A model generated the notes under the pieces. That model ran no database searches. It worked only from the letters and a program-made list of their open reading frames with translations, and was not told the origin of the DNA. This document shows, piece after piece, positions 5,164 to 10,137 of a DNA stretch of 40,075 bases. Within the stretch, counting starts at the first letter, position 1. The number at the start of each line of letters is the position of its first letter. The translations under genes and the position numbers were made by a program. The stretch is from NCBI GenBank assembly GCA_900318335.1, contig ONKF01000029.1:1-40075 (forward strand), written 5' to 3'. This DNA is from an uncultured Prevotellaceae bacterium (GTDB taxonomy: Bacteria; Bacteroidota; Bacteroidia; Bacteroidales; Muribaculaceae).

Positions 5164-5258
5164 CAATAGTATCCTACCGTTTTCCCTATAGACGCGCACC
5201 AACGGGTGAAAGGTTGCAATCTACAATAATAAATCCTCCATTTTCACACTTTAGGGTG
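5164..5258 (-). promoter_or_regulatory. promoter and paired operator sites of receptor paralog 1
   Basis: On the minus strand TACTATTG (5164-5171) is a near-consensus -7 element. Upstream lie two related sites, CACCAACGGGTG (5197-5208) and CACTTTAGGGTG (5247-5258), exactly 50 bp apart. The same arrangement, with the same 50-bp spacing and the same distance to the -7 box (within 1 bp), occurs before the paralogous receptor at 9169-9264. The proximal site would sit near -45, typical of activator binding. Which protein binds is inferred only (see the LuxR-type regulator at 9382). Confidence 0.6.
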
Positions 5259-5265
5259 TTAAAAA

Positions 5266-5378
5266 ATGGCCGCAGCAGAGCCGCGACACAGGGGACAGGC
5301 CTTTTGGGACTTGGCTTTCTGGGACTTGTCTTTAGAAGATTGGGCTTGTGGTTGGGGTTTCCTGTGCTGGAGCATTGC
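5266..5378. repeat. REP-like hairpin, copy 1 (upstream of RAYT gene)
   Basis: Begins ATGGCCGCAGCAGAGCCGCG. The arm GCAGAGCCGCGACACAGG (5275-5292) is imperfectly complementary to 5361-5378. The interior is expanded to 68 nt of G/T-rich sequence. The same leading motif recurs just after the transposase stop codon at 6410. Flanking of a RAYT gene by such hairpins is the usual arrangement for REP elements. Confidence 0.65.
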
Positions 5379-5442
5379 TACAGCAGTGTGGATTTCTTTT
5401 AAATCACTTGGGGAATTGCCTGAAAAAGGGTAAATTTGCATT

Positions 5443-6408
5443 ATGGATTGGGATAGGTACAAGAGCAAGAAACAATGGGCTGGGGACTTGAAACCGTCGA
5501 TGAAGCGTCGCCGGGTGGGCCATGACTATCAGAGCCGTTGTATCTACATGATTACTCTTGTTGTCAATGAGCGGCGCTCCTTGCTTGGAAGTCTCACAGG
5601 CAACGGCGAGACAACGCCAGCCATTGTGGAGCCGAGTCCACTTGGTCAAGCGGTTATACAATCTCTGATAAATCTTCCCAAATTCTATCCCCAGATTGCT
5701 ATCTGGACGTTCCAACTGATGCCTGATCACCTTCACTTTATCGTCTTTGTCAAGGAACGTATTCCTGTGCATCTCGGCAAGGTGATTAATGGCTTTAAAG
5801 TGGGATGTAATCGTGCCTATAAAGAACTTGTCAAAGGCGACACACCAGGATTGTGGGAAGATGGCTATAACGACCTGATTCTCGATCGAGATGGGCAGTT
5901 ACAGCGCATGAAGGCATATATCCATGATAATCCTCGTCGTCTTGCCATCAAGCGCAACCATGCAGACTTGTTCCAAGTCCAAAGAAATATCAAAGTGGGG
6001 AAATATACCTTTGCGGCGCTGGGGAATGTCTTCCTGCTTGATGCCCCATGCTTGCTGCAAGTGCAATGTTCTCGCAAACTCACTCCTCTGCAAATCAATG
6101 CTACTGTGCAGCGGTTCCTATCATTGGCACAAAACGGGGCAGTTCTCATTTCGCCGAGTATCAGTCCAGGAGAAAAGGCTGTGATGAAGGCAGCCTTCGA
6201 GCATGGTTTTCCCGTTGTTGTGCTTCAAGAAAACGGTTTCGCGCCTCTTGCCAAGCCAGGTGGCCGTCGTTTTGACGCTTGCGCTCAAGGCCGCCTGCTC
6301 ATGCTTGCCCCGTGGGAACATCACAACGATAGGAGGGTAATCAAGCGCAACCAGTGCCTTGACCTTAACGAGATGGCGAGGGTGATTTGCCTCAAGAGCG
6401 GGCAGTAA
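5443..6408 (+). CDS. REP-associated tyrosine transposase (RAYT, Y1_Tnp) with a C-terminal extra domain
   Basis: A 321-residue HUH-type single-strand nuclease. The HUH motif is MPDHLHF (His96, His98) and the likely catalytic tyrosine is Tyr159 in MKAYIHDNP. These are the hallmarks of IS200-related RAYTs, which nick REP hairpins. Residues 1-180 make up the usual transposase domain. About 140 further residues follow, including ISPSISPGEKAVMKAAFEHG (237-256) and RRFDACAQGRLLMLAP (275-290). That pattern resembles a Rossmann-like fold of the DprA/LOG type (weak, by eye). REP-like hairpins lie on both sides (5266-5378 and 6410-6465). The gene is intact and sits between two paralogous receptor genes. 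Start ATG 5443 was kept because the TGCATTATGG context has no better in-frame start nearby. Confidence 0.88.
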   Translation: MDWDRYKSKKQWAGDLKPSMKRRRVGHDYQSRCIYMITLVVNERRSLLGSLTGNGETTPAIVEPSPLGQAVIQSLINLPKFYPQIAIWTFQLMPDHLHFIVFVKERIPVHLGKVINGFKVGCNRAYKELVKGDTPGLWEDGYNDLILDRDGQLQRMKAYIHDNPRRLAIKRNHADLFQVQRNIKVGKYTFAALGNVFLLDAPCLLQVQCSRKLTPLQINATVQRFLSLAQNGAVLISPSISPGEKAVMKAAFEHGFPVVVLQENGFAPLAKPGGRRFDACAQGRLLMLAPWEHHNDRRVIKRNQCLDLNEMARVICLKSGQ

Positions 6409-6409
6409 A

Positions 6410-6465
6410 ATGGCCGCGGCAAAGCCGCGACACAGAGGACTGGTTTTTCTGTGCCGGGGCTTTGC
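6410..6465. repeat. REP-like hairpin, copy 2 (downstream of RAYT gene)
   Basis: Begins ATGGCCGCGGCAAAGCCGCG two bases after the transposase stop. GCAAAGCCGCGACACAGA (6419-6436) pairs with TCTGTGCCGGGGCTTTGC (6448-6465), 16 of 18 positions complementary, with an 11-nt loop. It shares its first ~26 bases with copy 1 at 5266. It may also act as a transcription end for the convergent gene at 6484. Confidence 0.75.
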
Positions 6466-6483
6466 AACGGCGATAATCTCATT

Positions 6484-6828
6484 TTATACTTGATAGACTT
6501 GGGTCATGCCGTCGGGTTCCAGGGGTGTGAAGGGCTGCTGCAACATCACGATATAGAAACGTGGCAGGCATTCAACAGGCGGGTGTTCGGCAATGTAGCG
6601 GGCGATCTTGCGTCGGGCGGATGCCCGCAGTGTCTCGTCTTCGCAAGGAACCAGCCGCTCTTTCTCGACAAAAGCGATCTGCCAGAAAGCCATATAACCG
6701 ATAACGTAACGCTCTACTGCTTGCTCTACACTCCCGTCGTGGACGAGTTGATTGATGGTGAATGAATCAGTCTCACACACGGCCACGACGGCCCATGACA
6801 GATTGATATATCTCAATTCCTGCTTCAT
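6484..6828 (-). CDS. hypothetical protein, translationally coupled to receptor paralog 2
   Basis: A 114-residue protein without signal peptide or membrane segment, so probably cytoplasmic. Its ATG overlaps the TGA stop of the upstream receptor gene (ATGA), so the two are very likely co-translated. The sequence is mixed alpha/beta with a run of aromatic residues (YVIGYMAFWQIAFVEKERL) and a charged helix (ETLRASARRKIARYIAEHPP). I do not recognise a family. The paralogous receptor at 2815-5124 has no such partner after its stop codon. The gene is convergent with the RAYT gene, with the REP hairpin between them. Confidence 0.65.
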   Translation of the reverse strand: MKQELRYINLSWAVVAVCETDSFTINQLVHDGSVEQAVERYVIGYMAFWQIAFVEKERLVPCEDETLRASARRKIARYIAEHPPVECLPRFYIVMLQQPFTPLEPDGMTQVYQV

Positions 6829-9140
6829 AGTCTGTTTTTCTCTTGATTACCGGCTCCGGTGCCCTTGTACTTGCTTCGTGTCCAATTGAAGTGGTAGCGC
6901 ACGGTCACTTCGGCATAGCGGGTTTCGTTGGTGCGGTGCTGCCACAGAGTCAATTCCCCGAAATGCACCAGCACGTCCTGGCCATTGCGATGAAACAGGT
7001 CATGCCCCGCAACCTTAACTGATAGTTGGTCATTAAAGAATGTCTTGGACAGGCCGATGTACAAGTCAAGTTGGTGGCTGCAGCTGCTGATGTTCTCGCT
7101 GTCGCCCTTGCCCTGCCAATCAAGGGAGAGCGACCCCGTCCACGAGGACGAGAATTTGAAATTGTTGTTCCACTGTGCCATGAAGACTGGCCTTGACGGA
7201 CTATAAAAACCATCAGGCATGGGAATCTTCATCCACTCTTTCATCATGCTGACCGTGAGCTGGGGGTGCCAGATGCCAATGTGTGGTGCGGCAGTTAGGC
7301 TGAGGCTCAACACGTCCTTTTTGTCGATATTCTCTTGTATAATGAGTGTTGTGGCCTCGTGCCCCTCTATCTGACGGCCTAACTGCATGACCACATCATG
7401 CAGATGGGAATAACTCACATTAAGCGAGAGGAATTTCCATGTGGCATCCAGTGTCAAGTTATTAATGATGGTTGGTTTCAGAAACGGGTTACCTGACTGC
7501 CAAGTAAAGCGGTTAGAATAATAGGTCTTGTTGCTAAGTTCAAAATAGGTGGGGCGGCGAATCTTCATCACATAGCCCAACATCGCATTGACGTTACCCA
7601 CTTGGGTCGATAACGAGAGGCTGGGGAACAGATGGTTCTGATGGCGGCTTTGCCCGTCCATGTGAATGCCTTGACTGTAATAGTCGGTGGTAACATATTC
7701 GTCACGCAATCCACCGCTCACCTGGCCGATAGGCGTCAAGCGGGTATACTCGACAAAGGCGCTGTAGTTGCGCTCCTTAACTTTGGTGTAACTTGACGGA
7801 ACAATCTGCTCAGGGTTGAGGTAATCATCGTTGCGGTGGGTGTAGTCAATCTCACTGCCTACCGACAGGTTGCCACCCCATAATGTCCATGAGAGCACGA
7901 GTTTGCCTGCAAACAGTTCATTTCTCACGGTATTCTCGCTGGTTACTGTGCGGTCCTCCCACTCTTGGCTCTCCTCAAGGCTCCACTCACTCTCGCGGTT
8001 CTTGGTAAAATAGTAATCGGCATTGAAATCGATGTTGGTTTTGCCTACTTCGCCATTATAATAGAAATTGAGCGAGTGCGGCATATTGTGCCGTGTTTTA
8101 TTCTTATTATGGGTCATCAGGCTGTCGTAGAAATTGCCGTTGGCGGTCACTTTGGCAGCAAAAAAGCCTTTGTCAACATCCTTGAGGCGGATGCTGCTAT
8201 TATATTGGATGCCCATCGTATGCTTGTCATTAAACTGGTAATTGGCCCCAAAAACCAAGCGCAAGATATTGTAATTACCCTGGCTGCGACCGTGATTGTC
8301 CTGATGCCACAAGGTGTCAGCGGCGACATCTTGGGTGATGCGATATTTCTGCAACCAGCCGTTCTCAAAGTCGCTGACTGTACCGAATACATCCAATCCC
8401 AGGTGGCGGTAATTCCAAAGAAAGGCATTATAGGTGCGGGACATTTCGCCCTGAAAGAAACTGCTGCGCAGGTGACCTCCCCAGCCTTCACCCTGTGCCT
8501 TGCGTGTCTTAATGCGAATAACGCTCTGTACTGATGCGTCATACTTTGCTCCAGGGTTGGTGATTACTTCAACACTGATGATGTCTTGAGATTTCAACTC
8601 GTTAAGTTCGCTGGCATCGCGCATCAGGCGGTTATTGATGTAAATGAGAGGCTTGCCCTTGCCGAACACCTCCAACCCATCGTCCTTGCTTCGCACGCCC
8701 GGGACGTTGCGCAGCACGTCCTCGGCAGTGCCCAGCCTGCTCAGGATGGTGCCGTCAACACTGGTGATGAGTCCCTCCCTTCCCAACTTGTGAGCAGGGC
8801 GCTGGCCTTGCACGACGACCTCTCCCAGCAGGGCTGCATCGGGCTGCATCACGATATCGCCCATGTTGTTTCTGGGCGACTCTAAGAAAAGGGTTACATA
8901 ACCTACACTTGATATTTTCAACAAGCAGTCATCACAATCGGCCATGAGGGAAAACCTGCCGTCCTCGCCCGTTGTAGTGCCTTGTACAAAAGTCGAGTCG
9001 GTCCGATTAATCAGGATCACGTTGACAAAAGGCATTGGCACACGGTTCTCGTCCAGCACACAGCCTGTAGTCGGACCTGCCACAGCTGTCAAAGCCGCAA
9101 TTAGTTCTACAATGATGATAATAATCGTTCTTTCAATCAT
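6825..9140 (-). CDS. TonB-dependent receptor-type outer-membrane beta-barrel protein (paralog 2)
   Basis: A 771-residue protein with the same domain order as the product of 2815-5124. It has an N-terminal hydrophobic signal (1-22), a carboxypeptidase-regulatory-like domain (TTGCVLDENRVPMPFVNV, about 24-100), a plug (VLRNVPGVRSKDDGLEVFGKG; EVITNPGAKYDAS) and an OMP_b-brl_3 barrel. Long blocks are shared with paralog 1, such as GNLSVGSEIDYTHRNDDYLN and NRFTWQSGNPFLKPTI. The 5' region is divergent from the LuxR-type regulator at 9382, and both receptors share the same operator pair, so common control is likely. The stop overlaps the start of the 114-residue gene downstream. Ligand unknown. Confidence 0.92.
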   Translation of the reverse strand: MIERTIIIIIVELIAALTAVAGPTTGCVLDENRVPMPFVNVILINRTDSTFVQGTTTGEDGRFSLMADCDDCLLKISSVGYVTLFLESPRNNMGDIVMQPDAALLGEVVVQGQRPAHKLGREGLITSVDGTILSRLGTAEDVLRNVPGVRSKDDGLEVFGKGKPLIYINNRLMRDASELNELKSQDIISVEVITNPGAKYDASVQSVIRIKTRKAQGEGWGGHLRSSFFQGEMSRTYNAFLWNYRHLGLDVFGTVSDFENGWLQKYRITQDVAADTLWHQDNHGRSQGNYNILRLVFGANYQFNDKHTMGIQYNSSIRLKDVDKGFFAAKVTANGNFYDSLMTHNKNKTRHNMPHSLNFYYNGEVGKTNIDFNADYYFTKNRESEWSLEESQEWEDRTVTSENTVRNELFAGKLVLSWTLWGGNLSVGSEIDYTHRNDDYLNPEQIVPSSYTKVKERNYSAFVEYTRLTPIGQVSGGLRDEYVTTDYYSQGIHMDGQSRHQNHLFPSLSLSTQVGNVNAMLGYVMKIRRPTYFELSNKTYYSNRFTWQSGNPFLKPTIINNLTLDATWKFLSLNVSYSHLHDVVMQLGRQIEGHEATTLIIQENIDKKDVLSLSLTAAPHIGIWHPQLTVSMMKEWMKIPMPDGFYSPSRPVFMAQWNNNFKFSSSWTGSLSLDWQGKGDSENISSCSHQLDLYIGLSKTFFNDQLSVKVAGHDLFHRNGQDVLVHFGELTLWQHRTNETRYAEVTVRYHFNWTRSKYKGTGAGNQEKNRL

Positions 9141-9168
9141 AATATCTCTATTTTTGGTTGCACGAGTG

Positions 9169-9264
9169 CAAAATTATCGAGGCAAACCTCAATAGAGACA
9201 CGCACTAAAGGGTGAAAGGTTGCAGTATCGGGGCGATGAAATCGCATTTTCACACTTTAGGGTG
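9169..9264 (-). promoter_or_regulatory. promoter and paired operator sites of receptor paralog 2
   Basis: On the minus strand TAATTTTG (9169-9176) is a consensus -7 element. Sites CACTAAAGGGTG (9203-9214) and CACTTTAGGGTG (9253-9264) lie 50 bp apart. Identity with the region before paralog 1 extends around each site: GGGTGAAAGGTTGCA follows the proximal site in both, and the distal site lies within the shared stretch TTTTCACACTTTAGGGTG plus TTAAA. The consensus is CACYWWMGGGTG, an imperfect dyad. The distal site is also only about 85 bp from the -7 box of the divergent regulator. Confidence 0.65.
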
Positions 9265-9323: not shown

Positions 9324-9355
9324 TTTGCTGGAATTGGGCATTTGGGGTACATTTG
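9324..9355 (+). promoter_or_regulatory. promoter of the LuxR-type regulator
   Basis: TTTG (9324-9327), a 20-bp spacer and TACATTTG (9348-9355) form a perfect Bacteroidetes promoter, placing the start of transcription about 20 nt before the ATG at 9382. Confidence 0.75.
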
Positions 9356-9381: not shown

Positions 9382-10137
9382 ATGGCAAGAATTGAGGATT
9401 TCTTCACGTTGACCAACAGTGTAGAGGGTATTGATGATGAGCAATACCGCCACCTTGAGCCCATGATACGCGCCATCGATGCGATGGCCAATGCGACTTA
9501 CCAGAGCATTTATGTCATCGACTACTTGAAGCATGGCTTCCTGCATGTGGCGAGTAATCCGTTGTTCCTGTGTGGGCACACTGCCGAGGAGGTTCGCCAG
9601 ATGGGCTACCGCCTATATATCGACCACGTTCCCGCCGAGGAACTGACGATGCTCACTGAGATTAATGAGGTGGGCTTTAAACGCTTCAACGAGGAGCTCA
9701 TGACCGAGCGCAGCCGCTGCTTCATGAGCTACGACTTCCATATTGTGAATGGCGAGGATTGCTATCTGGTAAACCACAAGATTACACCGTTTGCACTTGC
9801 GCCCGACGGACGTGCCTGGCTGGCGATGTGTGTCGTGTCGTTGTCTCATCACACCACTCCCGGTCATGTGGAGTTCCGCAAGAAGGGTCAATCCATTTAT
9901 TGGGAATATGACCTGAACGGTCATCGCTGGCAGGAACACAGAAGCGTGACCCTGAGGCAACAGGAAAAACAGGTGCTCATCCTGTCGGCTCAGGGTTTCA
10001 CAGTTCAGCAGATTGCCGACAAGATGTGCCGTGCGCTGGATACAGTTAAAACCTACAAGCGTGCACTGTTTGAGCGCCTGGGTGTGCGTAGCATCACCGA
10101 GGCGCTAACTGTTGCCACTAATCAGGTGCTGTTGTAG
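9382..10137 (+). CDS. PAS-like domain / LuxR-type HTH transcriptional regulator
   Basis: A 251-residue cytoplasmic protein. The N-terminal half (about 40-155) looks like a PAS sensor domain (SIYVIDYLKHGFLHVASNP; VNHKITPFALAPDGRAWLAM). The C-terminus (188-245) is a GerE/LuxR helix-turn-helix: TLRQQEKQVLILSAQGFTVQ, then IADKMCRALDTVKTYKRALF. There is no receiver domain, so it would respond to a ligand or to its own PAS state rather than to a histidine kinase. It is divergent from receptor paralog 2. The imperfect-dyad sites at both receptor promoters are plausible targets, but no binding is shown. The stop lies 12 bp from the end of the convergent DUF3298 gene. Confidence 0.87.
   Translation: MARIEDFFTLTNSVEGIDDEQYRHLEPMIRAIDAMANATYQSIYVIDYLKHGFLHVASNPLFLCGHTAEEVRQMGYRLYIDHVPAEELTMLTEINEVGFKRFNEELMTERSRCFMSYDFHIVNGEDCYLVNHKITPFALAPDGRAWLAMCVVSLSHHTTPGHVEFRKKGQSIYWEYDLNGHRWQEHRSVTLRQQEKQVLILSAQGFTVQQIADKMCRALDTVKTYKRALFERLGVRSITEALTVATNQVLL

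Follow-up and report, generated by a model that had tools for sequence, protein, structure and literature searches.

The 40,075-nucleotide window analysed here (contig ONKF01000029.1 of the uncultured Prevotellaceae assembly GCA_900318335.1, from a gut and probably rumen bacterium) carries two paralogous genes for OMP_b-brl_3 outer-membrane receptors, receptor 1 and receptor 2, and, divergent from receptor 2, a gene for a putative PAS-LuxR regulator that starts at position 9382. Two sites precede each receptor gene, a proximal site (O1) and a distal site (O2), and the distal site of receptor 2 also lies upstream of the regulator gene (Table 1). Judging from sequence comparison, the four sites are probably two copies of a two-operator control element through which the 9382 regulator would activate the receptors and control its own gene.

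Paired sites and their association with the regulator

An earlier note on this DNA had reported four CAC-N4-GGGTG sites, two before each receptor gene and 50 bp apart in both pairs. The search of the window returned these four matches and no others. As single motifs they are unremarkable in number (4 versus 1.62 expected, with 4 attained in 4 of 100 shuffles). Elsewhere in the 3.15-Mb assembly (92.9% complete), no pair at the exact 50-bp spacing was found, and dinucleotide shuffling of each upstream region, 20,000 times, never gave two or more motifs. Therefore, a chance origin of the pair was ruled out.

What is conserved is a near-palindrome of 14 bp, CAC(A/C)CTTTAG(T/G)GTG, which reads CACMCTTTAGKGTG or its complement in the related genomes and is preceded by TTT. 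The two copies are inverted and face each other; TTTCACNCTTTAGNGTG is the sequence of each copy when read along the strand of the promoter served. In 21 diverged segments, O1 reads GCAAC.tTTCACCCTTTAGTGTgCGTCTAAt on the receptor strand and O2 reads caAcTTTCACACTTTAGGGTGTgAAA on the regulator strand; these conserved flanks reveal the inverted arrangement, and the reading of the pair as a direct repeat was rejected. Thus, the pair itself proved real, in the form of inverted near-palindromes whose spacing is 48–50 or 39 bp, not always 50 bp. The spacer is largely diverged, as the earlier note had observed: the receptor-1 and receptor-2 spacers are alike at 19 of 36 positions, chiefly at both ends, and among the 21 diverged segments the identity was 94% and 97% for the sites versus 41% for the inner spacer.

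The genus survey covered 101 genomes, 83 of which contain receptor-1 homologues (E 1e-100) and 57 a regulator homologue (E 1e-20), at 60% identity or more in 53. The pair was present in 46 of the 63 segments upstream of regulator homologues, with a spacing of 50 bp (30 segments), 49 bp (13) or 48 bp (3). The 17 segments without it comprise 12 of a paralogue of about 41% identity, one ended by a contig edge, and four orthologues (L054, L058, L061, and L082) with O1 missing or damaged. Exact O2 sites numbered 76 in the 101 genomes, versus 2 for the reversed-pattern control. By our own sorting, 46 of these neighbour the regulator, 16 neighbour receptor-1 orthologues, and at least six neighbour receptors only about 28–30% identical; of the remaining eight at most, one stands before an S41 peptidase gene. 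Furthermore, exact O2 was found in 46 of the 53 genomes with an orthologous regulator (at least 60% identity), as compared with 6 of the 48 without. These results support the view that the operators are two selected sites with helical-phase spacing. The spacing classes of 48–50 and 39 bp fit the phasing expected for two sites on one face of the helix, as first proposed, and the genus-wide association of O2 agrees with the proposal that the divergent regulator would be their natural binder.

The small regulon of the regulator and two receptors proposed earlier agrees with the exact-pair and one-mismatch searches in the genome of the window. One-mismatch single sites elsewhere in this genome were no commoner than those of the reversed-pattern control (21 versus 21, each strand), and were dropped as regulon members. 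In other species the set includes further receptors, and the pair recurs before receptors only about 28–33% identical.

Promoter geometry within and beyond the genus

TAnnTTTG at −7 is given as the sigma-ABfr consensus of the Bacteroidetes in PMC7366714. Boxes of this type follow O1 at both receptors and O2 at the regulator, and the distances from O1 agree within 1 bp (23 bp for receptor 1 versus 24 bp for receptor 2), as had been noted. In the 46 genus pairs, the gap between O1 and the receptor-side TAnnTTTG was 23 bp in 23 pairs, 24 bp in 22, and 22 bp in one, and the gap between O2 and the regulator −7 box was 31–32 bp in 20 and 83 bp in 25, with one odd case (L053). When start positions were placed by setting the −7 box as −11 to −4, the derived centres at the receptor were −41.5 to −42.5 for O1 and near −92 for O2, and that of O2 at the regulator was near −49.5 or −101.5. 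On such inferred starts, an operator centre near −41.5, the class II-type placement, would apply to all 46 genus pairs and to eight of the nine candidate pairs of other genera. Class II activators of the LuxR/TraR and NarL/FixJ types have their site centred near −42.

Beyond the genus, 77 regulator-upstream segments, drawn from other genera and from named records, were scanned with templates chosen after some of the pairs had been seen by eye. Candidate pairs were found in nine. Seven of them have a spacing of exactly 39 bp (L153, L154, L169, L244–L246, and L275, of which L244–L246 are near-copies of one another and L153 closely resembles L169), 23 bp to the divergent-side −7 box and 30–32 bp to that of the regulator. 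The other two, L172 and L177, are spaced at 51 and 20 bp, and the 23-bp gap is present in eight of the nine. Mononucleotide shuffles yielded a pair in 1 of 1540. The palindromes differ from those of the genus (TACCCGAAAGGGTA, TACACTTTTGTGTA, and GACACAAAAGGGTA) at constant geometry, suggesting that the operator changes with the regulator and the geometry stays. The spacings of 39 and 49 bp are about one helical turn apart. In line with such coupled change, the genus paralogue of about 41% identity is accompanied by palindromes of a different kind, which in L073 and L074 are spaced at 49 bp.

A second promoter-like element around the proximal site, absent from the earlier note, was also observed. 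Promoters of extracytoplasmic function (ECF) sigma factors are typified by an AAC-type −35 and a CGTC-type −10 element. In most genus promoters examined, O1 sits within the spacer of TGCAAC-N17/18-YGTCTA, which we infer to be a promoter of this type; the −10 varies (TATC, CATC or others) in some promoters of receptor 2 and of other genes. The pattern GCAACNTTT-N12-15-CGTCTA gave 48 matches in 25 genus genomes versus none when reversed, and in 16 genomes from elsewhere in the order the counts were 4 and 2. Downstream of the element, 32 of 33 loci (29 from the genus, receptor-1 promoters included) have an ATG frame of at least 60 aa within 260 nt; for 26 of the 29 genus loci, the distance to the ATG is 23–108 nt. 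The gene immediately following the element encodes a member of one and the same protein group in eight genomes. In the genome of the window, the element precedes another OMP_b-brl_3 receptor gene (L281) and an ECF sigma operon (L317). An ECF regulon with OMP_b-brl_3 receptors among its members seems to exist in the genus. At L283 and L317, the operon behind TGCAAC-CGTCTA encodes a DUF6249-like protein, an ECF sigma factor, and a DUF5056-like protein.

The 34 receptor-1 promoters at 70% identity or more were divided into 23 with an orthologous regulator, nine without, and two undecided. Among the nine, G050 has the paralogue of about 41% identity, and the genomes are 80–96% complete, so that a regulator may have been missed in some. 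TGCAAC was present in 32 of the 32 receptor-1 promoters tested, and YGTCTATA in 31. Perfect O2 was found in 20 of the 23 promoters with the regulator versus 3 of the 9 without (Fisher p 0.006, kinship ignored), O2 at one mismatch or fewer in 22 of 23 versus 6 of 9 (p 0.057), and a −7-like box at about 23 bp, one mismatch being allowed, in 17 of the 23 and 4 of the 9, respectively. The regulator-less genomes are scattered across the receptor-1 tree (by eye, with no formal test; 11 of 29 inner branches are weak), suggesting that the regulator was lost several times. Because the ECF-like promoter is intact in the regulator-less genomes while the sites tend to erode, this promoter appears to be maintained irrespective of the regulator; once the regulator is lost, the operators tend to decay, though not immediately. 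In addition, nine receptor-1 homologues of 62–66% identity at other loci (L188–L194, L197, and L198) have TGAAAC-N17/18-CGTC in eight cases and an operator within three mismatches in none.

Proposed control and rival explanations

Considering the sites, their orientation, the fixed distances, the regulator linkage, and the conservation of the ECF-like element in these comparisons, we propose that a regulator dimer would occupy each 14-bp near-palindrome. O1 on the receptor side and O2 on the regulator side, inverted and at spacings compatible with a shared helical phase, would probably be bound cooperatively. At O1, centred at −41.5 to −42.5, the regulator would act as a class II activator of the receptor, with O2 near −92 as a helper, and O2 at the regulator gene would provide autoregulation. 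We favour class II activation and autoregulation because the 23–24-bp gap to the −7 box is fixed across genera. In this genus, an occupied O1 would also close the ECF-like promoter that spans it, because O1 fills the spacer between its −35 and −10 elements. The receptor would then pass from control by an envelope-stress-type promoter to control by a ligand-gated promoter.

In a fuller and more tentative version, which we regard as a possibility short of an even chance, O1 would work in two ways, with one dimer activating the housekeeping-type promoter and simultaneously shutting the ECF-sigma promoter that flanks the site. The whole might then amount to a regulon gated by a ligand and varying by one helical turn (39 or 49 bp); in other genera, LuxI/FeeM-like synthases would be the controlled neighbour, and in this genus it would have been grafted onto an envelope-stress-type regulon of outer-membrane receptors.

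Several observations weigh against control of the receptors by the regulator through paired sites. No pair was found in 68 of the 77 segments from other genera, and the adjoining divergent gene is not receptor-like in any of the nine pair-bearing loci. In five segments of the paralogue of about 41% identity, the 30-bp pair returned by the scan has a poor second site, and two palindromes lie about 116–118 bp apart in these segments. Persistence of the sites without the regulator, which the earlier note had named as a refuting observation, was seen in part: 3 of the 9 receptor-1 promoters from genomes with no detected orthologue keep a perfect O2, and 6 of the 9 keep it at one mismatch or fewer. 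G048 and G100 bear O2 and receptor 1 with no regulator detected, and G071 and G077 bear a single exact site with neither regulator nor receptor 1 detected. The receptor-1 O1 is often degenerate even where the regulator is present (three mismatches or fewer in 14 of 23 versus 3 of 9, p 0.24), and G058 (L099) has the regulator and has lost O2 at receptor 1. Finally, the receptor-1 genes and their ECF-like promoter are intact in the nine genomes without an orthologue, which fits a repressor equally well. For two further O2-bearing genomes, G094 and G075, receptor 1 lies on short contigs and only the paralogue was detected; their orthologous regulator may be unassembled.

The main rival, which we consider unlikely although it is the strongest of the alternatives, is that the regulator is a repressor, which would sit at O1 between the ECF-type −35 and −10 elements, be strengthened at O2 by cooperativity or a small loop, and be released by a ligand. 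We had initially read the ECF overlap as a sign of repression, and leaned towards activation after the constant 23-bp gap was seen outside the genus. Repression would account for the occupation of the 17/18-bp TGCAAC-N-YGTC spacer by O1 in most genus promoters examined, and for the survival of receptor 1 with an intact ECF-like promoter in nine genomes without an orthologous regulator. However, the seven segments of other genera keep the 23-bp gap to the −7 box, as an activator needs, and no CGTC element was seen in the other-genera segments inspected by eye.

It is improbable that a different protein binds the sites and that the PAS-LuxR gene is merely linked to them. The persistence of sites in G048 and G100, where no regulator orthologue was detected, and the single sites of G071 and G077 would be explained in this way, but the genus-wide association (46/7/6/42), the two fixed distances of O2 from the regulator's own −7 box, and the different palindromes that accompany diverged regulators all point to the regulator as the binder; moreover, the regulator-less genomes are scattered over the receptor-1 tree, again by eye, as repeated losses predict. 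Lastly, it is hardly credible that the shared pair has no function and was simply left behind when the receptor gene and its promoter were duplicated in tandem: the receptors are indeed paralogues of 50% identity in the same orientation at one locus, but the sites are 94–97% identical in diverged species where the spacer is 41% identical, and the pair recurs before receptors only about 28–33% identical.

Features of the window, neighbouring genes, and known systems

Table 1. Putative control elements and genes of the receptor–regulator locus (positions in the window).
Feature	Position	Strand	Remarks
O1 of receptor 2, proximal operator	9201..9214	.	CGCACTAAAGGGTG; motif match and comparison
O2 common to receptor 2 and regulator	9251..9264	.	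CACACTTTAGGGTG; motif match and comparison
O1 of receptor 1, degenerate proximal operator	5195..5208	.	CGCACCAACGGGTG
O2 of receptor 1	5245..5258	.	CACACTTTAGGGTG
ECF-like promoter of receptor 2 around O1	9193..9224	-	TGCAAC 9219–9224, 18-bp spacer, TGTCTCTA 9193–9200; weak −10
ECF-like promoter of receptor 1 around O1	5187..5218	-	TGCAAC 5213–5218, 18-bp spacer, CGTCTATA 5187–5194
−7 box of receptor 2	9169..9176	-	CAAAATTA, TAATTTTG; 24 bp from O1; exact consensus
−7-like box of receptor 1	5164..5171	-	CAATAGTA, TACTATTG; 23 bp from O1; one mismatch
−7 box of regulator	9348..9355	+	TACATTTG; 83 bp from O2; exact consensus
Receptor 1, OMP_b-brl_3 outer-membrane protein, 769 aa	2815..5124	-	
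Receptor 2, OMP_b-brl_3 outer-membrane protein, 771 aa	6825..9140	-	
Small conserved protein, 114 aa, downstream of receptor 2	6484..6828	-	Beside receptor 2 in many related loci; without Pfam family
PAS-LuxR regulator, 251 aa	9382..10137	+	Helix-turn-helix match and structure model

The regulator has a C-terminal GerE/LuxR helix-turn-helix (residues 191–245, E 4e-11), and PF00196 is present in all 38 of the 38 regulators aligned; its N-terminus gave no PAS match in Pfam. The AlphaFold2 model has a mean pLDDT (predicted local distance difference test) of 90.7. Its best structural match is 3clo, over most of the length and with 14% identity in the structural alignment. VqmA and LOV proteins also match, most of the listed alignments spanning the helix-turn-helix only. 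The predicted structure is thus compatible with a putative PAS domain followed by LuxR.

A PAS-LuxR regulator with a nearby operator is already known in kind. VqmA, the PAS-LuxR quorum-sensing receptor of Vibrio cholerae, targets a small RNA gene. In the present system, by contrast, regulation would probably be aimed at outer-membrane receptors and at the regulator gene, through two operators and a promoter of the Bacteroidetes type. The protein of 3clo, a LuxR-domain regulator of Bacteroides thetaiotaomicron (NP_811094.1), differs by its 14% identity, and no operator or target is given for it in the results consulted. With the LuxR/TraR and NarL/FixJ class II activators, the system shares the helix-turn-helix family and the site centre near −42; unlike them, it has two inverted near-palindromes 39 or 48–50 bp apart between divergent genes, with O1 overlapping an ECF-type promoter. 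Similarly, the TGCAAC element resembles ECF sigma promoters in its AAC-type −35 and CGTC-type −10 elements, 17–18 bp apart, and in preceding an ECF sigma operon in one case here, and differs from them in having its spacer filled by the operator of another regulator.

To our knowledge, little is known of the control or the cargo of OMP_b-brl_3 receptors. The locus provides a regulator family, an operator code with natural variants, a fixed promoter geometry, and an overlap of two promoter types. No description of the two-operator geometry with its one-turn variants and ECF nesting was found in the open-access papers searched, including passages of PMC13088901, PMC12596196, and PMC7366714, an absence that the open-access scope makes weak.

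In the pair-bearing loci of other genera, the divergent gene of L153, L169, L172, L244, and L245 encodes a protein like the N-acyl amino acid synthase FeeM (E 5e-5 to 0.004, below the Pfam cut-offs), and two of these five proteins weakly also resemble an autoinducer synthase. The divergent gene of L246 is FeeM-like judging by its start; those of L154, L177, and L275 encode a lipoprotein-like protein, an 82-residue open reading frame (ORF), and a transglutaminase-like protein, respectively. In the cultured relative Prevotella corporis DSM 18810, a 39-bp pair separates the regulator gene from one for a transglutaminase-like protein. One query FeeM-like protein matched none of the 101 genus genomes, in a search with no positive control. 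The arrangement recalls LuxI/LuxR pairs, and the acyltransferase and the regulator are a possible signalling pair of this kind in the Bacteroidales. In Prevotella L245 (4870–5834), the same strand also carries a small ORF of 48 residues, a gene for a radical-SAM/SPASM protein, and one for a receptor (41% identical to receptor 1). A further 39-bp pair precedes the small ORF, likewise at 23 bp from a −7 box. This ORF is precursor-like, and the locus holds the FeeM-like gene and two 39-bp pairs. The FeeM-like genes and the peptide-like ORF with its radical-SAM neighbour hint at an acyl amino acid or a modified peptide as ligand or cargo.

Some further observations were made in the genus. The paralogous PAS-LuxR regulator of about 41% identity (L069–L080 and L085) is accompanied by palindromes such as TACCCAAAAGGGTG, and in L073 the divergent gene encodes an outer-membrane-like protein of 685 aa, for which neither Pfam nor NCBIfam gave a match. 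The single exact operators in genomes without a detected regulator, L125 (461–474) and L126 (138–151), lie within an ECF-like promoter, and that of L125 (G071) is the one that stands before the S41 peptidase gene. In each of G049, G051, and G097, two O2 sites at or close to the regulator/receptor locus are separated by exactly 1549 bp. In the window, a Y1 transposase of the type associated with repetitive extragenic palindromes (REPs; 5443–6408) lies between two REP-like copies (5263–5304 and 6407–6448), the first of which starts about 5 bp from O2 of receptor 1. A similar REP-like sequence also lies near the place where O2 is missing in L099 (G058).

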